Below, in pieces: positions 15,157 through 59,241 of a stretch of DNA of 64,000 bases. The DNA comes from Pyropia haitanensis (taxonomy: Eukaryota > Rhodophyta > Bangiophyceae > Bangiales > Bangiaceae). The translations under genes and the position numbers were made by a program. The stretch is taken from NCBI GenBank assembly GCA_008729055.1, contig SDUX01000008.1:682001-746000 (forward strand). Direction: 5' to 3'. A model generated the notes under the pieces. The model saw only the letters and a list, made by a program, of their open reading frames with translations, had not been told where the DNA came from and did no database searches. How positions within the stretch are numbered: position 1 is the first letter of the stretch; each line of letters begins with the position of its first letter.

Positions 15157-16770
15157 TCAGCTGATGTAGGAGTAGTAGGGGTACGGATACCATACAAACC
15201 AGCCCATCGAGCATGCTGCTGTGCCGGCCCCGCATGCAGACTGGCCTACGCACAAACCCGGGACAGCCGCGGCAGGGAGCGAGCACGGAGATGGGGCAGA
15301 TGGGTAGCACGGTATCCCCCACTCCATCTCCCGACCAGCATTGCGGTGCTCAGGAAGGAGGCTCGGCTCGAGCCCCCCCGACCACTCCTCGGTAGTACGT
15401 CGACCCCAGCCCCAGGCCGAGCCGCTGCTGCTGCTCCACGCGGCTGTGCTGCTACTGTTCCATGCTGACAGCCCAGCACGGGGGCCGCTTCCAACGCCCT
15501 TTGAGTGGTCGGTGAGCCCCGCGGTCGACGGGAACGCGCGTGGCGGCACAGCGAAGGAGCCGCGGCGCGCCCAAGGGGTGGACGTCATCTTGGCAGGGAC
15601 GCGCGCAACAGAAAGCGGCGCGCTGACAGAGGCAGACCGCACCACACTGTCCCGCTTGGACACGACCGTCCATACAGGCGGCGTGGGTGCCACGGCGGCG
15701 ACCGGCGGGACGGCCAGAGGGGGGTTGGGAGTCGGCGTGCCGTTGACCTGTCGCGGTGCGGCTGCGAGCGCGTACCACCGCGCAAAGAGGTCGTCCGAGA
15801 TGGAGAGGCCGGCTATGCGGTCCGTGTCGCTTGTGATGCCCAGCTCTGGTGCAGGCGGGGGGGGGTGAACAGCGCCTTGTCTGCCTGCGAGTCGGTGTCG
15901 GAAGATCCCTGCTTGACTTCGGCAGATGAGTTGGTGATGCGCGAAGACGGCGACCAGGGCTGGGATGGCCAAGCAGCACGATTGAGACGCAGAAGAAGCA
16001 GACCTACAGAACTGGCAACAGCGCACTTTTTTAGGGTTAGTGAGCGTTGACGATGTGAGCTTACCTGCAAAGGACATCACCCCCATGCGTCGTAGTAATT
16101 GCCCGTCCCTCCTTGACACTCTCCCCAGCGCGCCTCTGGGCAGGCCACTCAAGTTGAACGCGATCCCAGCCCACGCGAGCACACACCCTCACCTTACCGT
16201 TGTCTGCCCCACCACATCTGGGTTGCCCATCCCCGCCTTGTACTTGGGGTTACGCGTCTGCTCCACGCACAACACCATCCCACCCGGCGAGTGCGCCTCC
16301 TCGGCCAGCAGCGCCCGCATCGTGTCCGATTGCTTGTTGTCCAGCCGGCGAATGCCGTCGCCCACCTCGGCAGCCTTGACGTACGCAACACGCGCCCACG
16401 GGCGCACAAAGACATTGTACGGCGGCGCCGCAAGAGCGGAGGCGCGTAGCGCACGCCGCACGGCGTCGACGCCACCGTCCTCGGGAACGTGAAAGGACGC
16501 CAGGACAAAGCGTGCGACCAGTGGAGCGGACCCATCGCACAAGATCCAGACACGAAAGTTGGTGAGCGGGGCGGGCTTTGGGCGCGGATCCAGCACCGGG
16601 GGACGCAAAGCAGTTGACTCAGGCACGTGCGGAGGGGAAGCAGCCTCGGCAGTCGTCACAGCCTCACTTGCAGCAGCTCGAACGCCGCTCTGGTGCGGCA
16701 GGCACGGGGACCCAAGAGACCGGGAAGGGGAAACAACGCTCCGAACAGACACCACCGAGGCGGCCGCCAT
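15157..16770 (-). CDS. Two-exon orphan protein, function unknown
   Basis: Exon 1 is 16770-16198 (191 codons) and ends at a GTAAGG donor. Exon 2 starts at 15959 after a CCCAG acceptor; the 238-base intron is in phase 0. Exon 1 carries a compact segment of about 125 residues (NFRVWILCDGSAPLVARFVL, VFVRPWARVAYVKAAEVGDG, SPGGMVLCVEQ) that looks folded but matches no family I know. Exon 2 begins with a polar SSDTDSQADKALFTPP stretch, changes frame at the nine-base G run 15857-15865, and continues as PELGITSDTDRIAGLSISDD to a Ser/Pro-rich tail with an aromatic end (GWFVWYPYPYYSYIS). The frame change has the sign of one missing base. The ATG at 16770 (MAAASVVSVRSVV) is chosen over upstream codons by composition. 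Confidence 0.5.
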
Positions 16771-18481
16771 GGTGCCGTCCCTCGATCCGTGGGTCCCGTT
16801 TGGAGGCACGGCGGGCAAAACAACAGCCAGCTGCCAGTTTGCGAGGACAGCGGCACCCCTATGACAGCTCCTCGGGGCTCTCTTGTACGCGCGTTGCGGA
16901 CCCTCCAGCCCCGCGGTCGTGCTGCTGCCCTCCCCAACCTCACAGACGTTGCGGAAAGCTACAGGGACGCGCCTGTTGGCTTTCCTCGACAGTCGCACGG
17001 CGCCCGTCCCCGAGCGGCAGACGCGCCCTACGGGTCCACCAGTGTTGGCGCGAACGGTCGCCTCCTGGCCGCCCTACGAACGTTGGCAATGCGTAGGGTG
17101 CACGGGACACACCACCTCAAACGTGCCCGTAAGAGACCCTCCCCCGGTGAGGGGTCGTGACGCCGCCTCGAAAAAACAACAACGGTGCCTGCGCTGCCAT
17201 CGATTTGAAAGCTTCCCTCTCTCACTCGAGTGGATCAGCTGGCGACGGCGGCGGCCGCGCAGCCTGCAGGGGAAGATGCGGTGGCGGGAGTCGTCCCCGA
17301 CTCGTGTCCTGTCGGGCACATCTTCGCCAGTTCATGCGCTGCTGAGTGACAGGGTCCGGACGTGACCCGTTGCCCGCGGTGGCTGGACCGATATGGTCGG
17401 GTAGGGGATCGGTGTCGTGGTTGCGTGATGCATAGCAGCCCTCCACCTGGCACATCCCCCAACGCACACCAAATGAGATGGCGCCACACGTCCAAATCTC
17501 GACAGCGAGGCCTGCTCACTGCTGCCCTTCTCCTCCCTCCCTGATACCCGATCACGCCCGGGGGTGCTCACGTGGCGGCGAAGGGGGGACGTGGGCGGAA
17601 TGAACGGCAAGCACGAAGAGAAGCCTCCCGTCCAGACGGTCAGCAACGGCGGTTTCCGGATTTACCCCGCGCGCTCCGCTCTGCATCGGCCACGACTGGC
17701 GCCGCTTCGATCGCGTGCTGAACTGCAAAGTCGGCGAGCCGCTGCCGGGGGACGACACGCATCCTGAGAGGTGTTACACGCGTCAACTAAGTGTGGAGTG
17801 GACGCCGTGACGGCGCAACCATCACGATGATACAGGGTGGCCGCCCTTGCCACGCGGCGCATGGTCACGACCAGCGGCCCGGGTGTGAATCGGGGGCGGT
17901 TCCACAGACACGGCGTCGTTCGAGCGGAAAGCTTGACCCTGAGGTGTCCTGGATCGGTGTCTCGAAGGATAGCCAGCAAGGAGCGAGGCCGTCTGGCTGC
18001 GTGCCTCGATGGAAGAGGCAACGGCGAGCCACCCTGCTGGCAGCCGGGAGGCCCCGCGCGGCGCCACGGCAAGCGCTGCACACGTGCCGGCCGGCAGTTG
18101 AGCAGGGGCTCGTTGGTGGTCATGCCGTGATTCGTAGCTCGGGTTTGACAGACGAGAACCGCCGAAACGGTCTAATTGTTCACTGCAACCAACGAGCAAT
18201 GTACTTTGTCACTAGGTCGAAGAGGGGACCTAACGACGACTGACCCGGGGCGACGGCTCGCGAAGCCAGATGGCAATCTCGGACTCCTGGCAAGCTTCCA
18301 TCACCACAAACGCCGGAACGACAACTTGAACCGTTGCGCTCTCCAGAGGCCGAGTCTGGCCGCCATCGTCGCCTGCCTCTGTTCTTCCTCTGTCTGCCGT
18401 TCATTCCCCTGCCAGAGTGCTCACTCTCTGCCTCACCCCGGCTTCCTTGGTACGCTACTCTGCTTTCCTTGTTCCCCGTCC
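16771..18481. promoter_or_regulatory. Divergent intergenic region (orphan gene / FKBP gene)
   Basis: About 1.7 kb separates the minus-strand ATG at 16770 from the plus-strand ATG at 18482, so both promoters must lie here. Overlapping ORFs in all frames are Arg/Pro/Ser-rich and show no conserved features. No specific factor site is claimed. Confidence 0.35.
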
Positions 18482-20785: not shown

Positions 20786-22238
20786 TCAATCCAGCTGCGC
20801 AATCGCCTCGGCCCGCTTCCGTGCCTCTGCCTGCCGCCGCGTCAGCCGGACGGCGTCGACCATCACCTTGGCCACCTCCGCGCTCGTCCAGTAGCTCGTG
20901 TGGCTGGTCAGCGCCAGCCACATCTTGACCGCGTCGTACGACGTGTCCACCCCCGTGGGGAGCTCATAGTCGATGCGGCCGGGCACCACCCAGCTGTCAT
21001 CGTCCGCGCCATTCGCCGAGTGCAGCGGCGCGGGCGCGAGGCCGCCGCCGCGGCCGCCGCCGCCGCCGCCGCCGCGGCCGCCGCCGCCGCCACCGCCGCC
21101 GCCCTTGGCCGCCGCCCGCTTCGCGTCGGGGCTGCCCACGCCGCCGCCGCCGTCGCCGCCGGGACCGCGGCCGCCGCCGGCGCCGCCGACCCCCTCGCCA
21201 TGCCCCCCCCCCGGCCCGCCACCACCCCCACCGCCGCCGCCACCGCCGCCGCCGCGTTCCCCCCCCGCGCCACCCGCCAAGTCCTCCGCGTCCACGTCGT
21301 GCCGAGGCGCGGGGGGCGCGCCGAGCGCGGCGCGCGCGGGCGGCGCCGGCTCCGCCACGGGCACCGCCGCGAGCAGCGGCGGCGGCGGCGTGGCGAGGCC
21401 GGGCGGCAGCGGCGGCGCTGACGCGGCGCCGGCGAGGCGCGGCGCCCGCGGCCGCCGCGGCGGCGTTGCGGCCGTCGTGGCGGTCGGGCCCTTGGCGGCC
21501 GCCGCGGTGGCCGTCGACGCCTTGGCGGCAGCGGCGGCGGCGGAGTCGGCCGCCGCGGTCCCCGCCCCTGGCGACCGTGCCGGCCGGGGTGTCACAGGTG
21601 GGGTGCCTGCCGCCGCCGCCGGCACGTCCTCGGTCGACGGAGTGCGGCTGAACAGCTTGCCCAGCTTGGTGAGGGTGCTCGCCCAGGCGGCCTCGCCCGG
21701 GAAGGAGCCGCCGCCACCGCCGCCACCCACCAGCCCCGCAGCAGCGGCGGCGGCGGCAGACAGCGCCCCGCCCCCCCCCCCCCCCCTCCGCCGTCGGCGC
21801 CCCCCCCTCCCCCCCCGCCGCCACCACCACCACCCGCCGAGCCCGCCACACCCACCCCCCCCCCGGCCTTGAGCCAGCTCTTGTACACGGGCAGCCGCAC
21901 GGCGGGCGGGTCCGACGCAAAGTCCGGGCGGAGCCACGGCTCCACCCGAAACGCGAGCGGGTCCATCGGCGCGTACAGGTTGAAAAAGACCGGCGTGTCG
22001 CGGGAGAGCAGCACCTCAGACGCGACCGCGCCGTCCTCAAACTGGAGCGACAGGTAGCTACCCAGCGGGGAGCCCGCACAAAAGACGTGGTCAATGACCA
22101 GGCCGGGCGCCAGCCGGTGGCGGTGCTTCCAAAAAAGGCAAAAAATTATGGCCGAGCCGAGGGAGTGCGCAAAGATGGAGAAGCGCACGGGGGGGGGGGT
22201 CGGCCCGCCGCCGCCGCCACCGCCGCCGCTGCCGCCGC

Positions 22239-22269
<31 letters not shown>

Positions 22270-23057
22270 GCCGCCGACCCCCGCTGCGCCGCCGTCGGCT
22301 GCCGCCGCAGCGCCGGGGGTGCCCGCCGCGGCGGCAGCCGCGGGGCTGGTCGGGGACGTGTCCCCCCCCCCCCCCCCCCCTTCCCCCCACACGCGTACGC
22401 CGCGTACACCGCGTTGATCTGCCGCAGCACCTCCTCAATGATATATTCGTGCCAGCGCGGGCTCATAAACATCATCACATCGCCGGCCGACGAGAGGATG
22501 GCGCCCCGCAGCTGCTTGACCGCGTCTGGCGTAATCGACTCGACGGCGCGGCGCCAGCCCGCGTCGCCCGAGTGCAGCTTCGAGTGCCACTCGACCGGGT
22601 GGAACGCCACGTGCGCCGGCGCGTGCACGTCACGGGTGGCTCCGAGCACCTCGCCGACGAGGGTGGACATGTGCCGCGACGCGCGCGCCAGGGACATGAC
22701 AAACGGCGGGTTGTCCACCGACTGGTCGCCAATGCCGTGCACGATGAGGACGACGTGGTCGGCGGCGGCGTCGACGGTGATGCCGGTGGGGGTTGGCACG
22801 GGCGCCTCGGGGATGGCGGCCGACAGGGAGGGCGGCAGGGGGGTGGCGCCGGCGGCCGTGGCCGCCGCGCCGCCGGCGGGCTTGGAGGCCAACGCCGCCG
22901 CGGGGCGGCCGTCAGCCGACGCCGCCGTGGCCGCGACGGCCGTTGCCGCCGCGGCGGTCGCCAGTGGGTGGGAGGGCGACGTGCCGCCGTCAGGGTCAGA
23001 GGCCGAGGGGGTGGCAGAGGCCATCCCCACCGCCGCGGCGGCGGTGCCCTTCAACAT
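20786..23057 (-). CDS. DDHD-domain phospholipase A1-like protein (SGR2/PA-PLA1 family)
   Basis: Three frames are used in order. The first part (from about 23057) contains ADHVVLIVHGIGDQ and VAFHPVEWHSKLH. The second contains the lipase elbow FSIFAHSLGSAIIF (catalytic Ser in HSLGS), then VFCAGSPLG and FFNLYAPMDPLAFRVEPWL. The third contains GRIDYELPTGVDTSYDAVKM and ALTSHTSYWTSAEVAKV. Together these are the hallmarks of intracellular phosphatidic-acid-preferring phospholipase A1 proteins, including plant SGR2. The frame changes fall in C runs 22362-22380 and 21771-21786, each with the sign of one missing base. Long Gly/Ala tracts separate the blocks. The last residue of the DDHD quartet appears to be Glu (TSAEVA) instead of Asp. 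The ATG at 23057 is tentative; the family usually has a longer N terminus. Confidence 0.8.
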
Positions 23058-25212
23058 GGTCCCCAAAAGGGCAGCGCGGACGGAGCCGCCGGGAAGCGCC
23101 GAGCGGGGGGGTAGGGCGCCGTCGAGGAGCGCAGCGGGGGAGAGGGCAGTGGTGGGGGAGGCGGTGGAAACAGACGGGCGGGGCGGTCGGGCCGTCCAAC
23201 CCAAACGCAGCTACACGGGTGACTGCGGGCCCGCCCCCCCGCGGCGAGCGCCGCCGCGGCAAGCGCCGCAGCGGCAACCACGGCTCGGCGGCGCCCGCGC
23301 CGCCGCCTTCCTTCCCCCCCCGCCCGCCCGCCGCAGCAGCGGCAGCGCGGCGTGGGGTGCGCAGCCGGCAGGCCGACGGGAGCGGCGCGGCCACGCGGCG
23401 GGCACGCACCCGCAGCGGGGTCGGGGAGGGGGGCGGGGAGGGCGGCAGAGCGCTTCCACCCGCGGCGCCGCTGGTGGCGCGCGGCAGGCCGCGCGACGAC
23501 GGGGTGGGGCGGCGGCGGGCGGGGCGGGGGAGGAGCCGGCCACGGGCGCGCCGGCGCGGCGGGGGTCGTCGACGGCGGACGGCGGACGCGGGAGGGGGGC
23601 GGGAGGCGGCGGAGGGGCCGCTGGTTTGCAAAAGGTTTTGCACGAAACCTGGATGGGTTGCTCGTCATTTGAAATTAACTACAGTAGTTTAGTTACCAAT
23701 ATTTGACAAATACGTGCGCATACACGTGTACCGGAGGCTCACGCTGCGCCGCACTCGTCAGCCTTGACCTCTTGTTGCGCCGATGGGAACGGCTCGGCGA
23801 CTTGGCGGCCCCGGTCGTGTCGCGCCCGCCACGACCGTCGGCGCATGCTCATCAGGTCGCCCACCCTGCTGGGTTGCTGGCAGAGCCCTTCCTACCTGGA
23901 CGTGGGGCACTCCCCACGAGGCCCCTTGCTACCTCGCCCGTCTCCATCATCATGACGCCGCCCCCGCCCGTGTGCCGGTCCTGATCGCCGCCGCTGCCGT
24001 CGAATAATTTGACTGGCGGCACGGTGGGTGCACGCCCCGCCGGTGGGCCGCCCTCCTTCCCGCCCTACACCTCGCACCGCCTGGGGGAGGAGGGAGGGAG
24101 GGAGGGAGGGAGGGAGGGAGGGAGGGAGGGATAGGATGGGGCGCTTTCTCGCTTCCCCTCCCTTCCCCGCCCAAGAGAGAAGCGGATCAGGTATCGCCGC
24201 GGCCCGTCCTGGCGGCCGGGCGGCCGCCCCAATTCCGTGGCCGCCGCGCCGTCCTCACCGCCGCCGGCCGCGCCCGCCCGGACGGGGCGCCACGTGAGCG
24301 GCAGCGGCCTGCCGATGGCGGGGGCGGTTGCTCCGTCTTTGCGCTGCCGCCGCCGCCCCCCCCGTGCCCGCGCTCTTGACGGCGCTGGATGGGATGGCCT
24401 TGGCGGGGGCCGCGGGTGGTTCCTCGTAAGCAGGTGGGGGGGGGGGGGGGGGGGGGGGAGCGCACGTGGCCCCTTGCGTCGTCGGCGCTTGCTGCGGTGG
24501 CCGCCGCTGGCGGCTTTGGTGCCGGCAGTTTGCGTGCCCCCCTCCTCGCCGGCACGAGGTGCCGTGGCCACCCGTCGGTGTTCCACTGCTGGGCGGGCCC
24601 CCCCCCCGGCCTCGGAAGGTTGCACCGCCGCCCGCTTTGGCGAGCCGTCACCTCCCCTTTCTCCCTCTCGCGTTCCTGCCTGGCGATACTCGGAGCAGGC
24701 AAGGGGGGAGGCAGGGGGGGGTGGGGGGGGGGGGTTGGTTGTGGTTGCGAGCTCGAGCGGTAGCGGTGGACGGCTCTCACCGCACTGGCTGCCCGCCCGC
24801 CACCCTGCTCGTCGGGTGGGGCACCCCAGCGGGGGGGTGGGGCGGCGCGGGCTGTGGCGGCTGTGGCGACGCCCTGCCGCCTGGCCGGGGGGGGGGGGGG
24901 TGGCCGTGCCCGGTGCGCGGCGGCGTGTGCCCTCAAGGCTCGGCCGCCACGGCAGGGGGGCGGCACGCCAGCGCTTGCGGTCACGTCGCCCTGCGTGCGG
25001 ACCGCGAGCGCCGGCCATCCTCTTCCCCCCGGCAGACGTGGGTGGTCCGTGGTCGTCGCCAGCTCGTGCTCCAGCCGTTACCGGCACCGTGGAGCCCCCG
25101 CCCACCCGCCGCCCGTATCCCCCTCACACTGGCTGGGGTGGTCGACGGGAGCGCCTGGCGGGGACGACGGTGAGAGAGCGGGCGGGGGCGGGCGGGCGGG
25201 CGTGGGCGGACG
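23058..25212. promoter_or_regulatory. Divergent intergenic region (DDHD lipase / serine protease)
   Basis: This separates the two divergent genes. It contains an AT-rich patch at 23630-23710, a (GGGA)n array at 24090-24131 and several G runs of 8-18 bases (for example 24433-24458). ORFs covering it are Arg/Pro/Gly shadows. The real 5' ends of both genes could extend into it, since neither start codon is firmly placed. Confidence 0.4.
24090..24131 (+). repeat. (GGGA)n microsatellite with G-quadruplex potential
   Basis: About ten uninterrupted GGGA units lie in the space between two divergent genes. Four or more closely spaced GGG runs satisfy the usual G-quadruplex pattern, so a structural or regulatory role is possible. 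Simple slippage expansion explains it equally well. Confidence 0.8.
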
Positions 25213-30769: not shown

Positions 30770-30847
<78 letters not shown>

Positions 30848-31162: not shown

Positions 31163-31198
<36 letters not shown>

Positions 31199-34133
31199 AG
31201 CGGCGCTGCTGCAGTTGCGGACGCCCCTTCCTCTTGGATGGGGGGCCCCCACGGCAGCGACGGGGTGGCCTCGACCGCCGCCACCACCGCCGCCGTTGCC
31301 GCGGCGGCCGCCTCCGCTACGGGGTCGGGCACTTTTTTGCGGTGCAGCCGCCGGGGCGGCCGCGCCGGTCCCGCCGGGGACACGAGCACGACGGCGACGG
31401 GAGGGGCGGGCGGAGGCTCCTTTCTGCGGTGCACCCGCCGGGCGGGCGCAGCGGGCGCCGCCGCCGCGGCCGTCTCCGATGGCGCGGCGGCCGTGGCCGA
31501 CGCCGATGGCGCAGCGGCCGCGGCCGCCGCGGCCGCCACCGCTGACGCCGACGCGGCCAGTGGCGGCGCCGTCAGCGCGGCGCCGCCCAGCCCCGCCGCA
31601 GCCGCCGCCGCCGCCGCCGCCGCCACGACCCCCACCGGTGGCGCGCACCGCGGCGGGCGGGCCACGCGGCGGGCCGGCAGCGCGGGCGCCGCTGCGGCGG
31701 CCGCCGCCGCGAGGGCGGCCGCCGCGGCGGGTGGCTGGCCGGCAATCGCGGCGGCGAGCAGCGCCGACGCCGCGACGAGCGGCGGCGGCGGCTTGCGTCG
31801 ATGCGGCCGCCGCGTGGGCGACGGCGGCGGCGCGCGCGTCAGCGGCGGCGGCGACGGCGGCGGCGGGGGTGGCGCGCCATCGGCGCAGTCGAGGAACGGC
31901 CGCAGCGGCAGCTGGGGCGGTGACGGTGGCGACGGGTGCAGAGCGGGCAGGGGCACCACCGGTGGCGGCGGTGGCAGTGGCGGCGGCGGTGGTGGGGGCG
32001 GCGGCGGCGGCGGCGGCGCAGTCCCGGGCGGCGCCAACTGGACGACCGCGCGTGGCGGTGGCAATCGCGGCGGCGGCGGCGCGGGTCGCGGCGGCGGCGC
32101 CAGCTGAGGCGGCGGCACAGGTTGCGGCGGCGGCGGCGCCAGCTGCGGCAGCGCCAATGGCGTCGGGGCGAGCAGGGGCACTGGCGGGATTAACGGCTGG
32201 GCGCCGAGCGGCAGCTCGGGCGCCGTTGTCGGGGGCAGGGCTCCGTCGGCAGCAACGGGGGGTGGGGGGGGCACAGGGATTGGGGGCGGTGGCGACGTCG
32301 CCGCCGCCTCGCCTTCCTGCGCGCCGGCCGCCGCCGACGATGCCGCTGCCGCCGCCGCTGCCGTTACCGCTGCCGCCGCCGCCGCCGCCATCCGCGCTCG
32401 CAACGACCGCCGCGGCGTCGGGGACGACGAGGGGGAAGCGGCGGACCGCCCCGCTCCCCCCCCTCCCCCCCCCTCCCCCCTCCCCCGACCAGCGGCACCC
32501 GCGCGGCGTGGCCGCTTGGCGGGCCCCGCCGACGAGGGAGACGCCGCCGCCCGCTGCCGGCGGCCCCGACGCCGCGTTGACGGCCGCGTCACGCGTGCCG
32601 AGGACGCGGGCGACCGGGGCGGCGACGGCGGCGACGGGCTCCGCGCGGCCAGTGGGGGGGGGGCCACGGGCGGGGCAGCCCGAGGTGGTGACGGCGACGG
32701 CACCCGCGCGGGGCTGCCGCCGTCGGGCGGGACGGGCGGGGCGGCCGCCACGGCCGGCGGCACGGGCGGAGCGGTCGCCACGGCGACCGGCGCAGGCGGG
32801 GGGGCACATTGGCGGGCGGCACGGACGGGGCGGCGGCCACGGCGGGCAGCACAGGTGCGGGGGCGACTACGGCGGGCGGCACGGGCGGGGCGGCCGCTGC
32901 GGCGGGCGGCACGGGCGCCGGGGCCACCACGGCGGGTGGCGCGGACGGAGTGGCCGCGACGGCGGGAACCCCCCCAACCTCCGCCCCCCCCCCGCCGCCG
33001 CGGCTGCCCCGCCACCCCCAGGCTCCGCCACCAGCGCGTTCGCCTCGCCCGCCGCTGGCGCGGGCGCCGGGTCGGCGGCCGCGCGGAGCCAGCCCGCGGG
33101 CGTCAAGAAAAACGCGGGAAAGCCGTCCACGACCGTCCGCCCAACGATGCCCCTGCGCTCCAAATTGAGCAGGCTCGAGTGGAGCGCCCGGTAGTCGTCG
33201 ATCCGCGACTGGTCGCCACGGATGGGCGCCGAGCGGGGCCACTCAAAAATGGCCCGCGCAACGTCCATGCCCCGCCAGCAGCGGTGCTGCCCGTCGACGC
33301 GACCGCCCGCGGCGAGCGCGTCAACAATCGCCACCTGCGCCGCCTGCTCCAGCGACACCCGCGGCAGCCGCCCGGCCGCGGCGAGGCGGTCGGCCAGGAG
33401 CGGCAGCTGCCGGGGGGCCGACCGTGGCATCCGCGGCCGCGGCGGGACGCGGCCGCCGCGGACGCCCCGGCCGGTGCGACCGGCGGCGGAACCGGAGGCG
33501 GTAGCGGTGGCGCCGTCGGCCGCCGCCGACGCCCGTCGCCCGCGTCCCTGCCGCGCCCGCCGCCGCGGCTGGCGCCACTCCCCATCACTGCCCGCCGCGT
33601 CACCGTCGCCGTCGCCATCGTCGTCGCTGGTGACGCTGTCGTCGTCGTCGCCGGCCGCATCGGTCGGGCCGCTGCTGCCAGCGGGGGCTGCCGCCGGCTG
33701 GTCTGACGCCGGCGTGCTCGCGGGGGGGGGGGCATGGCAGCGGATATCGCTGCGGCGACGGCCGCGGCGGCGGCAAGGCGGGAGGAGGCCCCCCACACCG
33801 GGGATGAGTCGAGGCTGGCCGACGTGTCAGACGCGACTGCCGACGCCGTTGCGCTCCCGCTGCCGCTGCCGTCCGCGTCCGAGGCCGCTGCGCTCCCGCT
33901 ACCGCTGCCGTCCGCGTCCGAGGCCGCTGCGCTCCCGCTACCGCTGCCGTCCGCGTCCGAGGCGCTGAGCGGGGCGGCGCGGTCCATCGACAAGTGTCGT
34001 CGCTGCTTCGACGCACGCCCCTCCTCGCGGGTGTCGCCGCTCCGGATAGGGCCGCTGTTGCCACCGCCGCGGCTCCCATTGCTGTTGCTCCTGCGGCTCC
34101 CCCTCCTCCTCACGTCTTTGGGACCGCTGTCAC

Positions 34134-34165
<32 letters not shown>

Positions 34166-36198: not shown

Positions 36199-36239
<41 letters not shown>

Positions 36240-39900: not shown

Positions 39901-40622
39901 CGCGGACTTGATGACACTGCATGGCTGCCCCGCATCGGGGTGGTGGGGGGTGGCGGTGCTGGGCGCGTGCTTGGCGCTACCTGGGAGCGAGGAGGTGGGG
40001 GTGGCGGCACGCGCCCCGCCCGGTTCGCGCGTGCCGCGCGCCCCGGTCCCCCACACGCGTCGTGGGGACGGGCGCGGTTGGTGGCGGCCCCCGCTCACCG
40101 GCGTGTGCCCCCCTCCTCCGCTCTCCTCCTCCCCCGCGCCCTCCCCCCGCCGCGCGCCCATCCTCCGCGGCGGCTCGTCATGGCGGTAATGTCCCCGCCG
40201 ATTGTGGGATTGCGTGCGCACTGGGAGTGGGGGAGGGGGGATGCTGCCGAGGCGGCACGAACTTGGCGGGGTGGGGGGGGTGCGAGGGGGAGGGGCCCCG
40301 ATGCCCACTTTTGATGCCCCTGTCACCCTGCCCTGCCATGCGCTTTGTGTCTGACGTTGCAGGTTTTTTTGTTTTTTTTATTCTTGGCGGCGGTGGACGG
40401 CCCCGCGTTTGGCCACGTTGATGGTTGTGGCCTCTATTTTCTGTTGTTTTTTTTCGTGGCGCGTGCGTCCGCTCCCCCCCTCCGGTTGTCGTCCGCTTGT
40501 GGATTGGTGTTGCCTTCCGTGGGCTGCTCCACCGGCTCTACCGGCTCCGTGGGGCGGGCGGACCACAGCACCGCTCCCCCGGCGGGCAGCGCACCTCCTC
40601 CACTCCCGAGAACGCGCTGTCC

Positions 40623-41337
40623 ATGGCGCAGCTGGTCGGCCGCCCGTCGGCGCTCGCCGCCGAGTTTGTCCCGCGCTCTGCAGGGCGGGGCGTTGTCGGC
40701 GGGGTGGGGGGGGGCGGGGGGGGGTCCCCCGCCGCCACGTCGCCCGTGTCGCAGCAGCGGCTGTCGTCGCCGCCACCCCGCCAGCGGGGGATACTGTCGT
40801 CGCCGTCTGCCGGCGGCGATGGTGCTGTTGGCGGGGGGGGGGGCGCCGGAGGCGCCCGCTCCTCCCCGGCGGCCGCGGCGCTCGCCAGCGGCCGGTGGCA
40901 GCGGCTGGCCAACGCGCCCGAATTCGTCCCGGGCTCCGCGCCGTCGGCGGGTGGGGGCGCGTCCCCTGCTGCCGCCGCCGCCGCCGCCTCCTCTTCTGTC
41001 TCCGCCGCCGCCACCTCCACCACCACCACCGCCGCCGCCGCCGCCCGCGACGCGACGGCAACATCGGCAACAACGGCGTCGGCGTCGACGCGGCACGCCC
41101 CCCCACAGCCGGCAGCCTACGCGCTGGCCCGGCAGCAGGGCTCCCACGAGAAGGAGCGGCGGCAGCCGGCGGTGCATCATTCGCCGCCGTCGTCATCGGC
41201 GGCGGCGGTCGAGTTCCGGCGGGGCCTCGCGTCCGCGTTTGGCAAGGCCCCACCCCCGGCGCGGCCGTCGCCGACGCCGACGCCGCCGCCACGGGAGGTG
41301 CCGCCGCACCTGCCGCCGGCGGCGGCACCCCCCGTTG

Positions 41338-41368
<31 letters not shown>

Positions 41369-41787
41369 TCCGCCGGCGCCACCGCCCGCTGTGACGACGC
41401 CGTCCAAGGCTTCGATGAGCAGCCGCGCGGGGGGGGGCAGGGCCACGCGTTTGCCCCGCCTGCCGCGCCGTTGATGCCATACCAACACCATCAGGTGGCG
41501 CGCCAGCTGGCGGTGGGCGCGGACTTTGGTGGGTCCGCCCTTGGATCGACCGGATTCCCTGGCGGTGGTGGCGGCCGTGGGGGTAGGGGCGGCGGCGGCA
41601 GCGGCGGCGGCGGCGGCGGCGGCGGCGGCAACAACAGCAGCAGCAGTACGGGCCATTTGGGTGTCCTGGTCGGGGGCAACAGCGCGTTTCCTCCTCTCCC
41701 CAGCGCCGCGGCGGAGGCCACCCACCCGCCACCCGTGCCAGCGGGCGGTGGCCGCGGCGGCTATGGCGGCTACGTCCCCAGTTTGAT

Positions 41788-41818
<31 letters not shown>

Positions 41819-43255
41819 CAACAGCAACAGCTGCAGCAACAGCAGCAGCAGCAGCAGCAGCATCAGCAGCAGCAGCACATGAACGTGGGGGTGGGTAGCC
41901 TGGCCCCGATAGACTCGCTGGCCATCCTCCGTGCCGGTGCGGACCTGTACACGAACCCTGACGGGCGGGAGGACGCCCGTCGTGACGCGTCCCTGCTCCT
42001 CTCCACCGCCCCGCCGGGCACCGTGCCAGACGCGGTGCACCACTACTATGGGCTGCTGCCGCTCGAGGCAGAGCCCTCCTCCCCCGCCGCGGCGCCGCGG
42101 TCCAGCACCGGTGGCCCGCCGTCGGTTGTGTACAAGGCGGTGTCCACCAATGACGGCCGCGGGTACGCACTGCGGAGGTACCTGGGCGCGCCGCCCGCCC
42201 GCGGCGACGCCATCGTCGCGGCGGTGGAGTCGTGGAAGCGCATCCGCCACCCGGGGGTGGTGGCGCTCCGCGAGGCGTTTACCAGCCGTGCGTTTGCGCC
42301 GGCGCGGTCGCCGCTGCCCGCCGCCAACGAGCTGGTGTTTGCCTACGAGCTGCACCCGCGCGCCGAGACGCTGCGGGCGGCACTGCTGGCGCCGCCGCAT
42401 CTGTCCTCCCTCAACGCGGTGGATGGCCCCCTCTCCGAGACGGCCGTTTGGTCGGTGACGATTCAGCTGCTGACGGCGGTGGCGGCGGTGCACGGGGCGG
42501 GCCTCGTCCTCCGCACCGCCCTCTCCCCCGACGGGGTGCTGGTGACGGGTCGACACCGGGTGCGGATTGGGCGCCTCGCCGAGGCCGATGCGTTTGACGC
42601 GGACGGCGGCGCGCTCGGCCACGCAGCGGGCACCGCACGGCTGGCGGCGCTGCAGCGGGAGGATTTGGCCAACCTCGGCCGCATCGTTGGCGCGCTCGTC
42701 AGCCGCGGGCCCGCCGCGGGCGCCACGGACGGCGTCCGCCGCACGCCCGAGCTGGCCCGCCTGGTGGCGCTGCTCGTCAGCGGCTCGGCGCGGACGACCA
42801 TCACGGACGTGCTCGCGTTTGTGGGCCCCCGCATCGCCGTCGAGTCGGCGGCGGTGTGGGCGCACGCCGACGCGACGGCGGGGGTGCTGCACCAAGAGTA
42901 CGACGCGAGCCGGCTGCTGCGGCTGTCCTCGCTCCTCGGCTTTATCAACGAGCGCGCGGATGACGCGGCCGCGGCGGCGGGCGGCGCGGCGGCGTGGTCC
43001 GAGACTGCCGACCGGTACCTCCTCAAGCTCTTCCGGGACTACGTGTTTCACCAGGTGGACGCGGACGGCCGGCCTCTGCTCGACTTTGCGCACGTGATGG
43101 AGTGCCTCAGCCGGCTCGACGTGGGCTCCCCAGAGACGGTGCTGCTGAGCTCCCGCGACGGCGCCGCGCTGATCCTTGCGTCCTATGCCGAGCTGCAGCG
43201 CTGCCTGCGGACGTCGCTGGAGGACCTGCGCCTGCGCTCCAACGCGCATTCCTGA
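40623..43255 (+). CDS. PAN3: PAN3, regulatory subunit of the PAN2-PAN3 poly(A) nuclease
   Basis: PAN3 recruits the PAN2 deadenylase to poly(A)-bound mRNA through poly(A)-binding protein. The N terminus (frame from the ATG at 40623) carries two PAM2-like motifs, SALAAEFVP (about residues 9-17) and LANAPEFVP (about 96-104). The frame changes at the nine-base G run 41429-41437, with the sign of one missing base. A Gln-rich tract (41786-41880) and the catalytically dead kinase domain follow: VVYKAVSTNDGRGYALRRYL, WKRIRHPGVVALREAF, AVHGAGLVLRTALSPDGVLV, REDLANLGRIVGALVS. The C-terminal coiled coil and knob are present (VLHQEYDASRLLRLSSLLGF, YLLKLFRDYVFHQVD, LDFAHVMECLSRLDVGSPE). The CCCH zinc finger found at the N terminus of many PAN3 proteins is not seen. 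Confidence 0.9.
41786..41880 (+). repeat. CAG/CAA tract encoding poly-glutamine in PAN3
   Basis: Mixed CAG and CAA codons encode about 28 Gln residues interrupted by one Leu and one His. Codon mixing usually stabilises such tracts. Confidence 0.85.
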
Positions 43256-49230: not shown

Positions 49231-49234
49231 GAGC

Positions 49235-49309: not shown

Positions 49310-49534
49310 GGGCACGCATCGAAAGCTGTGGTTTTCTTGGTTGCGCTGGATGCGACATGACGAAATTACAGGTGCGGCTGCCGGCGGTAACCGGATTTGC
49401 GCAGGCCAATTTACAGCAGATCTGCGTCCACCACCTGCCTACGAACGTGTGGTCGAAGTTGGCAATGGCGTCGACACGTGAAAGCCCATCTCCCGCCCAT
49501 CCGACGCGCCGCCGTCCCTACAGTCGACGGGGAC

Positions 49535-50256: not shown

Positions 50257-52152
50257 CGTACACCGTGGCCTTCCGAGGACCCGCGCTCATGTGGTGACGT
50301 CGCTCCACGCATGTTGTGCGCGCCGGCGGTGACCAGGCACTTGCAAGCCTGTTTGTGTGCGTGATCGGCAACTCATCTGGCGGCGGCTGGGTGCTGCTCT
50401 CTGTGGGGCCGGCTTGCTTTGAGGCCGTGGGGCTGGCGCTGTGGCTCGCCCACCGCATTGGCTGGTACTGCAGCTGGACGAACGTGGCCGTCGCGACCCC
50501 GCGGGCGGAAGGGGTGGAGGCCGTTGAGGCACCCACCGCCCGCGCTTATCCGGGGCGGCGCGGCACACAAAGGAGTGGGAAGGGGCACCAGGCAAAGTGA
50601 CTGAGTGCTGTCGCAAGCTGCCGGGGCCCGCCATTGCATCCGCCGCGTCGCCCGTGGGCTGGGCGGGGCATGCGCCTCGCCGGCCACCGGAGGGTCGTCC
50701 TGGGCGCCCGCCCTCTCCGTAGCCGCCCGCAGCCGTACGTTCTCGGTCTTGACGGCTGCTTTTGGGGGAGAGGGTGCGCGGCCCGCTGGCAGCCGATCCC
50801 ACCGCGGCCGGCGCGGCGGCGGCTCCGCCCCCGCCGGGCGCGCGCGGCGGGACGCGCCGTAGGGCGCACGTATGGGTGGGACGGGGCGGGCGGGCATGTG
50901 TGTGGGGCGCGACCGGCGGCCGAGCGGGCGCCAGCTGCGTGCCCTCCCCTGCCGGCGCGAGCGGCGATGGAGCTACGCTGGGCGCCCGGCCTGGCGGCCG
51001 TCGTTGGCGACTGCGACAGGGCGCTGCGGCTCGGCGCCGCATCGGACGGGGCGGTCCTGCTGCTGCAGTCGGCTGCCGGCGACCGCCGCTGCGGCCGTGG
51101 CGGCGACCACGGGCGCTCCGCGCCGCCTGCCGGTAGGGGTGCTGCGCCGTGGCTGGCGGCGGCCGTCGCGGCGGCGGCAGAGGGGGCCACGGGCGCTGCG
51201 ACAGCGGGGGCGTGGGCGGCCGACGCTGCCGCCTCGCCCCGCGCGTCCCCGATGGTGCCCGCGGCGGCCGCGCTCGGGTCCGTCACCGACAGGGGGGGGG
51301 GGGGCGCCGCCGCCGCTAGCGCCGCCGCCGGCGCGCCCGCCGGCTCTCCATTGGCGGCGGCGGTCGTGGAGGCGGTGCTGCCGGCGGTGCCGTCCGTGGC
51401 GTTTGTGTTGCAACTGACCGGCGGTGGCGAGGGCGGCGGGGCGGGGCGGTCGACCGAGACGGCGCGCACCCGCCTAGTGGAGCCGCGTCCACCTCCGCCA
51501 CGGGCGCTTTCCCAGTCCCGCAGAGGCGCCCGCTCGGCATGATGCTTGGTGGTCCACCCATCCAGGGTCACGGCCAACACCACCTGCCGGCGCGGACGCA
51601 CAGAGGCGCGGGGGACGAAGCGAAGAAGGGCAGAACGCGTGTCCGCTAGCGGCCCCGCGGGCGATCGTCTTGCAGCTTGCGTGGCCGTCTGCATGATCGG
51701 ATGGTGGCGTGATTCCACGGCGCCAAAGCAGACGGTCTCACGTGAGCGCTTGTCATGAGTGAAGATGTGGTGGCAGAGACCCCGGCGAGGTGCTCCGGGG
51801 TACAGTAGTAGGGGGGGCAAGATCGAGCCACTGTCGCCCGACCGCGACAATTTTGCATATGCACATTCCGAATCGCGGTGGTCCGGCTGCTGCCGGCGTC
51901 TGTCAAGGGATCACGCGCGTCTTGTTCGCTCTGGTGCCGGGCGTCAAGCAGCGCCGCCGCACGTCAGCGCCCGGCCGCTCGCCCCCGTCGCCCGCACGCT
52001 CTCCCCCACCGGCCGCCCCCCTCCCTCCGCCCCAACCCGGGGTCCCCCCGTCCCCCCCCCCCTCCTCCCCCCATCACCCACGTCGTGCACACCGCCGTCG
52101 CCGCCGTCGTCCCCGCTACCGTGGGTGCCGGCGGCGGCGTCGGCCGCCCGTC
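50257..52152. other. Region with ambiguous ORFs, no firm gene
   Basis: Long overlapping frames exist on both strands. The best plus-strand candidate is 50967-51542 (191 residues, starting MELRWAPGLAAVVGDCDRAL, Ala-rich). On the minus strand a short KAAVKTENVRLRAATERA stretch (near 50740) resembles a helix. Neither shows a domain or splice support. The right end is the promoter of the glycosyltransferase gene. Confidence 0.3.
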
Positions 52153-52203
52153 ATGGCGCCCGCGTCTGCCCGGCGCGTCCTCCCGCCTCCCCCGGCAGCG
52201 GCA

Positions 52204-52241
<38 letters not shown>

Positions 52242-54930
52242 AGCGGCAGCGGCGGTCGCCCCCCCCCTCCCCCTCCCTCCCTCGAGCCGGGCCGCCGCGC
52301 CCAGTGGGGCTGGACCGCCTGCCTGCTGGTGCTCGTCGCGGGCATCCTTGCGCAGCTGCGACAGCTGCCGCCATTGCCGACGGGCTCAGCCACCGGGGCG
52401 GCGGTGGGGGCGCCCTCCCCCCCCCCCCACCCTTCCCCTCCCCCTGCACCCGGCCGTGGTGCCTCCTCACCCCCTCCCCCCGGCTCCCCCCCCCCTGGTG
52501 TGTGACCCGCCGCCGGCGGTGCACCTCAAGCCCACCGTCACCGACGCGGTCTGCTCGACCGCCGTGTCGGTGACGCCATCATCGCTGCACGTGGCCTTCC
52601 CCGCGTCACTGGTGACAGACGCCAACGCGGCGGCGGCGGCAGCGGCGGTTGGGCGGGGGAGGGGGGGGGGGGCGGTCGGGAGCGGCCACCCGCTCACCGC
52701 CCTCGTCGCGAGCCTCGCCACGCCCGCATCGCTGCGCGGCCTGGCCGAGCAGACGCTGCCGCTGGAGAATGGTAGCGCCCCGCTGCGCGCCGCCGCCGCG
52801 GTGCACGTTGCGTTTGAGGGCCTCGAGCCGGGTGAGTCGTACGTGGTTGCCCTCGTTGGCCGGCGGCTGGCGCGGCGGTTGCCCCTCTGCCGCGTCACGC
52901 TCGTGACGGCCGCCGCGGCGGGTGGCGCCGCCGGGCCGGCCGCGACCGACGCGGCGACCAAGGGCGACGCTGCCGCCGCCGCCGACGCGGAGCCGCCGCC
53001 GCCGCCGCCGCCCCCGCCGCCGTCGCTGGCCGTCAATGGGGGGTTTGAGGCGCACGGCGCGGCGCCGTACGCGCCGACGCGGCCGGCGGGGGCGGGCGGC
53101 GTGGCGAGCCCGCCTCGCCGCGCCGCCACCGGCTGGACGCCCTTTTACAATGGCGCCTACGCGCGGGTGTGTGGGGTGCTGCCGCTGGCGGGGTGGCCGG
53201 GGGGGGGGGGGGGGGGGGTGCCGCCGCTGGTGGGGCGCTGTGCGCTGCAGCTGGGCTCCGCGTCGGCGCCTGGGGCGAGGGGGGAGTGGGGGGGAGGCGG
53301 GGGGGGGGAGGACGAGGAGCGGTACTATGGCGCGCACCAGGCGGTGTGGGTGCCGCCGGCTGTCCGCGGGGGGGGGTTCCTCCTGGCGGTGTGGTACACG
53401 GTCAGCCCCGACTTGGCAGCATCGGCCGCGGCGGCGGCGACGGCGGCGGCGGCGGCTGCGGCGGCGGCGGCTGCTGGCGGCCGGCCGGCCGAGGCGGACC
53501 GGGACCGCTCCGACGCCGACGCCTTTTCGTTGGCCGTCTCGTGGACGTACGAGGCGTCTGGCGGGGCGTCCCCGCCGGGGGGAGGGGGGGCGGCCGCGCC
53601 CTCGCCCGTCCGGTCGGTGGAGCCGGCGGTGGTGCCACTCGACGCGGCCGCCGCGGCGCCCGGCGCGTGGGCCCGCGCGTGCGTGTTCATCCCGGCGCCG
53701 ACGGCGGCGGCCGCTGCCGCGCCCCGCCGCGTCCGGCTGCTGCACGCGTTTTTGCACCTGCACCACCACCGCGGCAACGCCTTTTTTGACGCCTTCTCCG
53801 TGCACCCGGTGGGCGCGCGGGGCGCCGCCGCCGCCACCGCCGGGTGTGCCACGCTCGACCGACACCCGGCGGGGGGGGCCGGCGTCGCGGGCGACGCGAC
53901 CGCCGACGCGGTGGCGGCTGGCGCGGCGGCGGACGGGGACGGCGTTGGGGGCGGGTCGCCGTCGTCGGCCCCCCCCTCCCGTCCCGGCTTTTACGCCGCC
54001 GCGGTGCGGCCGACGGCGGGCCAGCTGAGCCTGGCGGTTGCGCTCACGTCGGAGCGGGTGCTGCGGCTCGAGGCGCTCGCGGCTGCGTACGGCGGCGGCC
54101 CCGTCGTGGCGGCGGTGCTCGTGACGCACCCCGACGAGGCGGCGGACGTGGTGCGTCTGTGGTCCCGCATGCCCGCCCTCCGGCGGCACGTCGACCTGCA
54201 GCTCTACGGCCCGCCGGCGGACGTCGCCATCGACGCGTCGGCCGGCGGTCACGCCCGCGACCGCGACGGCGACGGCCGCCCGCGGGGCGCGCTGCCCATC
54301 AACGCCCTCCGCAACGCGGCGGTGGCGCTTGCAACGACCGACTATGTGGCGCTGCTGGACGTGGACCTCCTCCCGTCCTCGTCCCTGTCGTGCTACCACT
54401 CCCCCGGCTCGGCGGCACGGCTGGCGGCGGTGCTGCCCGCGGGCGCGTCCCGCGGCCTCGTCCTCCCCATGTTCATCACAGACGTGGGGGTGGCGGTGCC
54501 GCGCACCAAGGCGGCGCTGCTCAACCAGCTGGCCGCCCGCCTCGCCGCCCCCTACTGCTTGGCCTCCCAGGCGGCCACCGCGTACGACCGCTGGTACCGG
54601 GCGACGGCGGCGGTGGAGGCTCGCTTTGTACCCGGCTACGAGCCGTACGTGGCGCTCCGCACCGCCGACGCGGGCACGTACGACGAGCGGTTTGTCGGTT
54701 ACGGGTTTAACAAGGTGGCGTGGACGTGGGCGGCGGCCGCGCGCGGGGTGCGGCTGGTCGTGTCGCCGGCGTCGTTTGTGGTGCACGCCAACCACGCGGA
54801 CAATAGGTGGGTGGCGCGCATCCACCGGGGGGGGTACCTGATGACGTGGCGGCGGTACCTTGCGTTTGTGGCGGAGGAGGCCACGGCCGAGCGCTGGGGG
54901 CTATGGGGGGGGGGATGGGACAACCGCTGA
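52153..54930 (+). CDS. Type II membrane glycosyltransferase, LARGE/GT49-like
   Basis: The C-terminal half (from about 54010) carries the Glyco_transf_49 signature: LPINALRNAAVALATTDYVA, then the metal-binding LLDVDLLP (DxD near residue 735), YEPYVAL, YDERFVGYGFNKVAWTW and FVVHANHADN. GT49 enzymes add GlcNAc or glucuronic acid in Golgi glycan synthesis. The middle contains a carbohydrate-binding-like beta module (VNGGFEAHG, ALQLGSAS, FLLAVWYTVSPD, FDAFSVHPVG). The ATG at 52153 opens a poly-Ala stretch. A typical membrane anchor, QWGWTACLLVLVAGILAQL, follows in another frame, reachable through C run 52259-52267, with a return through runs 52417-52428 and 52486-52495. All three steps have the sign of single missing bases. 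Read without them, the ORF stays open but lacks an anchor. Confidence 0.75.
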
Positions 54931-57110
54931 GGAAGAGGAAGGAGCCACCGCGGCGCGGGAGGGTGGCGCCGCCGCTGTGGTGGTGGGGGGGGAGGCGCCA
55001 CCCCCGTGGTGGTGGGGGGCGCGGTCGGGGGTCCGGACCCCCCATGGCCACGTGGCCACGGCGGCAGCGGGGTACGCTACAGAGGGCTCTCCCGGCCGCG
55101 GCGCGCGCGGCAGTGGCCCACCCGCCAGTCACCGCAGTGGGGCAGCGGCGGTCGGACGGCCCCGTGGTGACTGGCGCCGTGTGACCAGCGGTCCCCGCGC
55201 GCCGACGAGGGAGGGCCGCCCTTTGCTTTGGGTGCTGCCGCCGCCGCGCCGTGGCGGGCCACCCCCCGCGGCGGCCGCCGTAACACCCCGCTGGGCGCGT
55301 GGGCCCTCGCTGCCACGGCACCCCAAGGCCGACGCACCCCACGGCCGCGTGGGGGATGGATACGCGCGGGCCGGGGTATCCCGAGGCCGCGGCACCTCAC
55401 GGGATGCGCGGGCCCGCGGGGCCGCTGCACCCCACCGCCGTTGGTGGCGCACACCTCCTGACCTCTGGGCTGCATGACCAGGCCACACCGGCAGCAGCCA
55501 CCACCTCGCACCGTCGTGCGACTCGTCGCGCACGCAACCCCCCGCTCAAACACCCCCCGCTCGCCTCGCGCCGTCCCGCCCCGCCCGCCACGACGGCCGC
55601 CGCGTTGGCCTGCCGCCCTTTTGTAGCGCCACCGCCGCCGGTGCCTGTCGCCACCGCCGCCGCGATCCGTTGCGCGTCCGCCGCCGGTGCCTGCCGCCAC
55701 CGCCGCCGGTGCTCGTCTCACGCCACTGCCGTTGCTGCCCGTGGACTAGGGCGCCGGTGTCCGTCGCTGCCCCCGCCTGCTGTGCGACGCCTCCTCGTGC
55801 ACAACGCGCGGCGCCCGGCCTCTCCGGCGGCCGTCGTCGCCGGCCGCGTCGCCCGCCGTCTATCGACACCATCGCCCGTGGCCGTCGCTACCGCTGCGGT
55901 GTGTGCGGCGCCTGTTGCCGCCAGCGCCGACGTCGCCGCCAGCTGGCGCGGGTGGTGACGGCCACGACGGCAGGGAAGGGCGCCACCTCCCCCCCTCTCG
56001 TAGACACCTCGCAGGCCTCGCACCCCCCCGTATCACTTTCGTCTGACCTGTTTTTCCACGCCTGTCTCCCGGCGCTGCCGTAGACAGTGCCCCGTCCCCC
56101 TCTCGCCACTTCCCAGTGGCGGTTGTGACGGTCTCGTGGACACCTTGCGAGCCTCGCACCCCCCCTGTCTCTTGCATCACTCCTGCTGTATCCCCCGTTT
56201 CCCAACGCTACTGCACACTGTTTCCCCCCGCCCCCGCCGCCGCCCGGTTGCAACCGCCATGGCCGCGACGGCGGGGCCTGCCCCTCCCCCCTCCCCTCTC
56301 GTGGACACCGCCCGTGCCTCACACCCCCCCTGCCTATGTCAATCCTGTTATTCCGCCCCCATCCGCCCTAGACATCCCCGCCTCCCCCCCCCCCCTCCCG
56401 CGCTGTTCCACTTCCCCGTCGCCCCGCCCGTCACCAGCGCGGAACGTTGGCTCGCCACAAAGACCCAGCGCCGGGAGGCGGGTGGCTGTCGCCGAGCGCC
56501 GTCTTTGTATGGTGCCTCGATAGCGGTGCCTTCCACCCCCCCCCCCCCCCCCCCCCCCCGCCCGACGTGTTGGCCATTGGGTTGGTTGGATCGCCCACCC
56601 CCGCCGCCCACGCCTTGCCGTCGGACGGATCCGCCGGCCGTCGGCCGCTGGCCGCCGGCCGCCGGCTGCCCCCCCGCTTCCGCACGCGCGCGCCGCCACG
56701 GCACCGCCGCCGCGGTCGACGGCAAGACCCCAGCGCCGTCAGAGGCAACGCCGCGGCGGCAGCAACGGTGGCGGTAAGGGGTGTGCAACGCCGCACGGCC
56801 GCGGCGTGGGCGCCGCGGGCGTGGGCGTACCCATTCAGTCGCGGGAAGGAGGGCACACCAGGGAAGACCGAGAGCGGCAGAGCGCCGCGCAGGGGGGGAG
56901 GGGGGGGGGGGGGGGGGGCGGACGACGAGAGAGAGAAACGCTATCGAGAAACAAGACTATGAGCGCCGCACCGGCGGCGGCCGCCACGCCGCCGTTGGTG
57001 GAACCGACGGTCTGGTGACGGAGCACCGCCGGCAGCGTCCGCGGGCGGCCGTCGCGGGGGGGAGGGCGGCAGCGTGTGGGTGACCGGCAGCGGCGCGCGC
57101 GGACGCGCGC
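54931..57110. other. Convergent intergenic region with degenerate repeats
   Basis: This lies between the stop codons of the glycosyltransferase gene (plus) and the bHLH gene (minus). It is C-rich with many short repeats and only shadow ORFs. Confidence 0.4.
55995..56345. repeat. Degenerate tandem repeat, about 140-165 bp period
   Basis: The block TCTCGTGGACACC...GCCTCGCACCCCCC recurs at about 55995, 56132 and 56296 with substitutions and differing spacers. It lies between convergent genes. Confidence 0.55.
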
Positions 57111-57201
57111 TCACCCCGACGGCCGGTGGCCGCCCTGCGCGGGCGGTGGCGGCCAGTAGCCGCCGCCGCCGCCGCCGCCGCCGCGGCCACCGTGGTGCGG
57201 G

Positions 57202-57258
<57 letters not shown>

Positions 57259-57483
57259 ATCGCCGCCAGCTGCGCCAGCTGCGACGGGTGGGGTTCCCCG
57301 CCACCCCCCCCCCCCCTCCCCCCCCCCCCCCCCGCCGCCGCCACCGCCGCCGCCGCGATGATCCCCCCCGCCCCCATCGGCGCCGCCATGGAGGGGCCCG
57401 AGGCGCCCCCCCCCCCCCCCCCCCCCGCGCCCAGCGGCGGCAGCGCGTCGAGCGCGGCGGCCGCCCCACTCACCGGGTCCACC

Positions 57484-57518
<35 letters not shown>

Positions 57519-58795
57519 ACCGCCCGCGGCGGGCGGCCGGCCGTGCTCCCGCGCCGCCGCGGGCGCCCCCGGCGGTCCGCCGCCAACGCCGGCCGCGCCG
57601 CCGCCGCCGCCGCCGACGCCGCCCAGCACGGCGGCGCCGACGCCGCCCACCGTGGCGTCTACGCCGGCCGTGGCGCCCGCACCCCCACCCCCCCCCCCCC
57701 CCCCCCAACGGACGGGGCTCCCCCCCCCCTCCCCCCACCCCCCCCCCCCCGGCCCGTCCCGCTCGCGCATCGCGGCCTGCACGTTCTTGACAAACTGAAA
57801 CGCCGAGACGAGGACGACGGCCTTTTGGGAGCTGCCCACCCCCAGCGCGAGCCCCAGCTCCCGGATCTTATTGTCAATCTTTTGGCGCGACTGCTTGGTG
57901 TGCTGGTTGTGCCGCTTCCGCCGCAGCTCCTTGTCCGTGACGGGCTTGAGCACCCCCGCCGGCCGCCGCAGGCCGTACGCGTCCCGCCCGCCGCCGCCGA
58001 CGCCGCCGCCGCCGCCACCACCACCACCACCGCCGCCGCCACCGCCGGCGCTGCCAACGCCGCTGCTCACACCGCCGCCGCTGCTGCCGACGCCACCACC
58101 GCCGGGGGGGGGCAGGTGCCCGCCGGGCACGCCGCCCATGGCGCCCGCCGCCGACGCGGCGGCAGCCGCCGCACCCGCCGCCGCCGCGACCGCCGCGGCG
58201 CTCTGTGGGGTGCCGCCGCCACCGCCGTGGCGCCCGCCCTCCCGATCCCCCACCCCCAGCAGCGCCTCCCCAAACGCGCCCGCCGGGCTGCCACCGCCAA
58301 CGCCGCCGCCGCCCCCCCCACCACCCACGCCACCGCCCGGCGCGTAGGGCAGCGCCGACAGCGGGCTGCTGCCGGCTGGCCCACCGCCGCCGCCGAGCCC
58401 CGGGTGGTGGTACACCGCCGCCATGCCAGGCCGCCCCCCCGGGGGCGACAGCAGCCCCGCGCCGCCGCCCACGCCGCCGCCGCGGCCGCCATCACCGCCA
58501 TACATATCCCCCCCGCCGCCACCCCCACCGCCGCCGAGGCCATCATAGCCACCACCCCCGCCCCCCCCATCGCCGTGGCCACCGCCGCCGCCGCCACCGC
58601 CCGCGACCGCCACACCCGCGTCGCCGCCGCCCATCCCCCCCCCCAGGCTGTGGCCATACCCGCCGCCGTCCCCCCCATACGGGTGCCGCCCCGGGTGCCC
58701 GCCCGGCGGGCCATACCCGCCCCCGCCCCCGCCGTGCACGTGGCTACCCGCATAGGCCGCGGCGGCCGCCGCGGCGGCCGCCGCCGCCGCGGCGC

Positions 58796-58826
<31 letters not shown>

Positions 58827-59188
58827 CATGTACGAAGGCGGCACGGGCGGGGGCCAGCCGCCGGCACCGCCGCCCCCCCCCCCCATGCCATGGCCCAGGT
58901 GCGGCGGGCGGTACCCCCCCCCCCCCCCCCACCGCCGTGCCCATACCCGAGCGCCCCCCGCCCCGCCGGGCTCGTCGCGCCCTCGTCGGGTCCCCCCCCC
59001 CCCCATCCACACGCCCGCCCGCGGCGGCGCTGAGGAAGCTGATGCCGCCCATCCCCCCCGGCGGGGGCTCGCCCCCGCCAACGCCGGCGGGGCCAGCCGA
59101 GCCATCCCCGCCGCCGCCGGCGGGGCCACCGAAAAAGGGGGCGCCCACGCCGGGGTGCGCCTTGGGGTGCCCGTGCCGCATCGCCGCC

Positions 59189-59241
<53 letters not shown>

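Follow-up and report, generated by a model that had tools for sequence, protein, structure and literature searches.

The window analysed here is a stretch of 64 kb with a GC content of 71.4%; the eukaryotic genome from which it comes measures 52.9 Mb and is split into 136 contigs. It holds 186 listed runs of at least 7 bases, apart from five A/T runs of at least 8. A putative DDHD-domain lipase gene, recognised from hidden Markov model (HMM) blocks, translation and Pfam, lies on the minus strand at 20790..23061 in three frames. An open frame with a Pan3 pseudokinase domain (Pan3_PK, E 1.6e-37) lies on the plus strand at 40355..43255, and a GT49 glycosyltransferase open frame, also on the plus strand, at 51763..54930. 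A further minus-strand gene at 57334..59794, delimited by HMM blocks and translation, contains a basic helix-loop-helix-like segment near 57949-57800, a putative bHLH domain; Pfam gave no match to this segment at E <= 0.1. Other domain matches were to a trypsin domain (25174-27351, plus strand, E 5e-34), a RING finger (45625-47631, minus strand, E 2.9e-6) and an FKBP-type isomerase (19804-20331, plus strand, E 1.6e-6). Repeats rich in G runs, together with three tandem 108-base copies, occupy 3337-4033. Positions 8001-16000 have a GC content of 56-59%, compared with about 75% for the genome, and the open frames there are almost devoid of Pfam matches; one sub-threshold Sigma70_r4_2 match was seen at 10397-11050.

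The initial annotation had reported that several genes of the window switch frame at long C/G runs, always with the same sign. The runs concerned are present in the sequence: G9 at 15857-15865, C19 at 22362-22380, G11 at 33722-33732, G9 at 41429-41437, C17 at 58914-58930 and C13 at 58992-59004.

Frame Detection

Our data set consisted of 311 kb, namely the window and 25 other stretches of the same genome (247 kb), 20 of them around kinase genes and five chosen by position. The 20 kinase-gene stretches have a GC content of 74.7%, and long C/G runs are frequent in the outside stretches as well as in the window. Frames were assigned with a codon HMM of seven states (non-coding plus six frames), which was seeded with 19 kinase domains and then taken through three self-training rounds on all stretches, the window included. 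In later passes the bases in runs of at least 7 were neutralised; the frame was free to change at each of these runs and also at shorter runs and decoy positions. One missing base shifts the frame by minus-one on either strand, and in frame terms plus-one is the same as minus-two (a net change of 1 equals one of -2). The fitted shift prior comes from the same data and leans to minus-one, and symmetric priors of 0.05 and 0.15 were used beside it.

The method was checked on 258 artificial runs in clear coding stretches. When these were in frame, 257 were called unchanged. When they were one base short, 175 were called minus-one, none plus-one, 12 unchanged and 71 ambiguous, and when they were one base long, 176 were called plus-one, none minus-one, 12 unchanged, 69 ambiguous and one low in coding signal. 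The method thus overlooks some changes without confusing their sign, at artificial sites that are cleaner than the surroundings of real runs.

Broken Frames in the Window

With neighbouring runs grouped and the fitted prior, the window has seven clusters with a confident net change, fewer than the "about a dozen" switches first counted: five are minus-one, one cluster of four runs is -2 and one is +1. Most runs are unbroken. Under the fitted parameters, with a prior that favours minus-one, the runs at 15857, 22362, 33722, 41429, 58914 and 58992 are all called minus-one, with posteriors of 0.87-1.0. The runs at 33722 and 58992 nevertheless have strong support, those at 22362 and 58914 moderate support and the one at 41429, in PAN3, weak support.

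Judged by homology, the clearest case in the window is the predicted DDHD lipase. Its Pfam domain is split over two frames, with DDHD positions 5-86 in block 22343-21817 (E 5.9e-12) and positions 218-254 in block 21767-20790 (E 1.7e-6). Between these two blocks lies a minus-strand cluster of C runs of 16, 8, 8 and 10 bases (21771..21864) with a net change of minus-one. The C19 run at 22362..22380, which reads G19 on the coding strand, separates the middle block from the upstream block 23061-22392, and the symmetric-prior Viterbi path places another minus-one change there; its posterior is 0.71 under the symmetric prior of 0.05, 0.67 under that of 0.15 and 0.97 under the fitted prior. By eye, a GT...AG stretch of 47 or 53 bases around this run would restore the frame too. 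Pfam gave no match to the upstream block, which carries a putative VHGIGDQ-like motif. A PDB search with the pieces of the gene returned mainly chance matches to glycine linkers; the middle piece matched PITPNM1 (E 0.0065-0.0092), and the first piece gave no match. No second copy of the gene, with which run lengths could be compared, was found among the DNA matches listed, the others being repeats or low complexity.

In the minus-strand gene with the bHLH-like segment, the C12, C17 and C13 runs at 58873..59004 give a net change of -2, as with two runs each one base short. Under the symmetric prior of 0.05 the minus-one posterior is 0.95 at the C13 run (58992-59004) and 0.75 at the C17 run (58914-58930); under that of 0.15 the values are 0.98 and 0.66. 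The G9 run at 41429..41437 (plus strand) lies in the low-complexity N-terminal part of PAN3, where the reading frame is +2 before the run and +1 after it and the Viterbi change falls within 41431-41492. The minus-one posterior at this run is just 0.30 and 0.31 with the symmetric priors, compared with 0.87 with the fitted prior. A protein search with PAN3 returned a single distant match of 27% identity. A break had also been claimed for the GT49 enzyme. We found no confident one within its domain; the Glyco_transf_49 match (positions 113-293) lies in one frame, and the fitted calls mostly leave the frame unchanged.

Three further runs were called minus-one. The G11 run at 33722..33732 (plus strand), in a region of more than 80% GC without homologues, has a posterior of 0.83 under the symmetric prior of 0.05 and 0.93 under that of 0.15, although the first Viterbi pass set its flanks on opposite strands, which leaves the strand uncertain. 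The G9 run at 15857..15865, read as C9 in the sense of a lower-GC gene on the minus strand, is minus-one at 0.99 with the fitted prior and 0.98 with prior 0.15; with prior 0.05 coding was uncertain, and minus-one is called only under the looser prior. A G7 run that the initial annotation did not name (32798..32804, plus strand) is minus-one at 0.97-0.99 with the symmetric priors and in the Viterbi path. The exception in sign is a C7 run at 56669..56675 (minus strand), which is plus-one (or -2) at 0.58 under the symmetric prior of 0.05 and 0.81 under that of 0.15.

A Minus-One Bias at Long C/G Runs

Across the 311 kb, the fitted HMM assigned 121.4 unchanged, 68.2 minus-one and 0.8 plus-one readings to C/G runs of 9-13 bases. 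The likelihood ratio (LR) against a model with equal signs was 25.3, compared with at most 5.15 in 24 controls with shifted labels. The ratio of minus-one to plus-one was 32.4:1.3 at runs of 9-10 (LR 9.5) and 35.6:0.1 at runs of 11-13 (LR 16.5), and at runs of 14 or more we saw 26.9 minus-one against 15.5 plus-one or minus-two (LR 0.97), a mixture that under-calls increasing with run length might produce. There was no net bias at runs of 4-6 (LR 1.95), at runs of 7-8 in the pooled fitted model (25.8:35.6, LR 0.55) or at decoy positions (11.5:13.6, LR 0.05), and clustered runs of 7-8 leaned to plus-one (13.4:34.5). The frame bias is restricted to homopolymers and less common at short runs, with an onset at about 9 bases. 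A/T runs of at least 7 in coding DNA were too few to test (4.3 weighted).

The symmetric-prior Viterbi path gave the same picture. Gaps of less than 120 bases that contain one run of at least 7 showed 15 minus-one changes, one plus-one and one unchanged, and 12, one and one, respectively, when only stretches outside the window were counted. Gaps with two runs showed six minus-one and four minus-two (equal to plus-one) changes and none of zero, as expected of additive errors. The strict symmetric posterior made confident calls at runs of 9-13 of 11 minus-one and no plus-one with prior 0.05, and of 12 and one with prior 0.15. In a two-flank test of isolated runs of at least 7, all 12 changes were minus-one with 120-base flanks (49 callable runs), as were nine of nine with 150-base flanks and 10 of 14 with 90-base flanks. 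The random-position control for this test was clumped, so that with 150-base flanks its 30 minus-one and 3 plus-one positions come down to 10 against 4 distinct sites; counted by distinct sites, non-run control positions show a slight minus-one lean (22:15, 10:4 at flank 150, and 58:42).

Under the fitted prior, isolated runs gave 25 minus-one against two plus-one changes (19 against two outside the window), numbers on which we do not rely, since that prior already favours minus-one. Confident calls at these runs with symmetric priors were nine to one (0.05) and 14 to five (0.15), with many runs ambiguous. We place the main weight on the likelihood ratio of 25.3 with its shifted-label controls and on the single-run gaps of the symmetric-prior Viterbi path, in which 15 of 16 changes were minus-one. 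The same-sign pattern first noticed in the window stands as a bias well above chance, while single sites are less sure and the run ending at 56675 goes the other way. The changes are spread beyond a few genes; about one third of the runs of 9-13 in coding DNA are broken, and most runs of equal length are read straight.

Run Lengths in a Tandem Satellite

Run lengths could be compared directly in 26 complete copies of a tandem satellite of about 720 bases, bordered by CGC-rich repeats, on the small contigs designated C77, C33, C128, C46 and C94. A C8 run was 8 long in 19 copies and 7 in seven; a C9 run was 9 long in 19 copies, 10 in five, 11 in one and 3 in one; and a C13 run was 13 long in 11 copies, 12 in 14 and 11 in one. 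Short runs hardly varied, two C7 runs being constant in 25 and 26 of the 26 copies and three C6 runs in every copy, and an A14 run was constant in 25 of the 26. Among eight copies that are identical once runs are collapsed, seven distinct combinations of C-run lengths occurred, with A14 in all eight. This pattern suggests either noisy calling of C runs or unstable C runs, with a single A run compared; the copies cannot tell which run length is the true one.

Discussion

We consider it very likely that the frame breaks are an artefact of systematic under-calling of C/G homopolymers in the assembly and not new biology. In the assembly, many of the long C/G homopolymers would lack one base, and the longest runs sometimes more; where such a run lies inside a coding region, the protein downstream would appear in the -1 frame, and the genes themselves are presumably intact. 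The reads would be expected to reveal the extra base, and the source may be the consensus step of long-read assembly, which is known to leave strand-blind errors at homopolymers with the sign of a missing base. The initial annotation had preferred the same explanation, and our results support it, because under-calling predicts an error that is genome-wide, minus-one, bound to homopolymers and indifferent to gene and strand, and the minus-one sign does recur across the 247 kb outside the window.

Published long-read errors (PacBio and ONT) resemble those proposed here in being bound to homopolymers, mainly false deletions and gene-breaking. In one long-read assembly, indel errors were mostly false deletions tied to homopolymers, and homopolymer indels made up 92% of PacBio CCS errors (PMC12007338). 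A second report finds that Illumina outperforms HiFi on indels in GC homopolymers, the two being similar in AT homopolymers (PMC11489684); this weakness of HiFi indel calling is at C/G runs, like the runs here. Unlike in those studies, the bias here is read from frame statistics alone.

Several observations count against under-calling. In PMC12007338, A/T homopolymers fared worse than G/C ones. In coding runs of 9-13 over the 311 kb, 18 of 36 sense-C runs were broken under the fitted prior, compared with 17 of 77 sense-G runs, and with prior 0.05, ambiguous runs left out, the counts were 5 of 28 and 6 of 89; an error blind to strand predicts no such difference. Minus-one changes do occur with either base in the sense strand, but more often with C. 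The lack of net bias at runs of 7-8, the plus-one lean where these are clustered and the slight minus-one lean at non-run controls also have to be set against it.

The foremost alternative is that the runs lie in spliceosomal introns and are spliced out, so that the frame change is only apparent. The genome is eukaryotic, some run-free coding gaps of 120-420 bases behave in an intron-like manner, and the GT...AG stretch of 47 or 53 bases at 22362-22380 would likewise bring the frame back. However, there is no reason why introns should have a length of 3n+2 at 15 of 16 single-run gaps, and several changes fall within gaps of just 6-26 bases. The coding signal in the 30 bases adjoining changed runs, as picked with the fitted prior, was 3.5 (left) and 4.0 (right) nats, compared with 2.9 and 3.0 at unchanged runs, and on both sides of the run the score was no lower than further out. 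Since the coding signal extends to the run on both sides, little room is left for introns, and the run-free gaps held candidate GT...AG pairs from which no clear consensus could be learned. We regard introns as an improbable explanation of the breaks.

Slightly less probable still are real contractions of the runs, as polymorphic or decayed alleles, with genes that really are disrupted in the sequenced strain. Mononucleotide runs of C or G can be mutable, and the satellite copies do vary in C-run length. Real slippage or length polymorphism, however, ought to leave both signs, and with about a third of coding runs of 9-13 broken the flanks nonetheless keep a strong codon bias.

Genome-wide changes of frame have a precedent in the ciliate Euplotes, whose frameshifting occurs where a slippery codon is followed by a stop codon and is not known to depend on long C/G runs. 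For Euplotes octocarinatus, frequent +1 programmed frameshifting is reported in about 11.4% of genes (PMC5011710); the likeness lies in genome-wide frame changes in conserved genes, and the difference in sign, which is +1 there and minus-one here. Transcriptional slippage, the subject of a review (PMC5009743), also has homopolymers as its site, but it would not yield one sign in genomic sequence. That the printed lengths are right and that ribosomes or RNA polymerase routinely slip by -1 on long C/G runs at very many sites is, in our opinion, scarcely credible: the observed sign is indeed that of -1 slippage, and an RNA-level process might break sense-C and sense-G runs unequally, but slippage would be needed at thousands of runs and about a third of the long coding ones while most runs of equal length are read straight, other shifts also occur at the longest runs, and slippage on runs at the DNA level would relax selection on both signs.

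If homopolymer under-calling is the cause, gene models throughout this assembly are broken on a large scale. At runs of at least 9 in the 311 kb, the fitted model counts about 95 minus-one changes; a rough hand extrapolation to 52.9 Mb, with 20 of the 25 outside stretches of the sample chosen around kinase genes, would give some 16,000. Protein sets, domain counts and claims of pseudogenes or recoding in this genome would then first have to be verified against reads. No reads are required for the sign test, which could be used to screen other GC-rich protist assemblies.

Some other features of the genome were recorded on the way. Patterns of tandem TTAGGG, TTTAGGG or TTTTAGGG had no match in the whole genome, and neither did the RuBisCO large chain. 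The kinase domains of the 20 stretches have an odd codon use for a GC-rich genome, with TTT 122 times against TTC 77 times and ATT 71 times, and their third positions are nonetheless mostly G or C.
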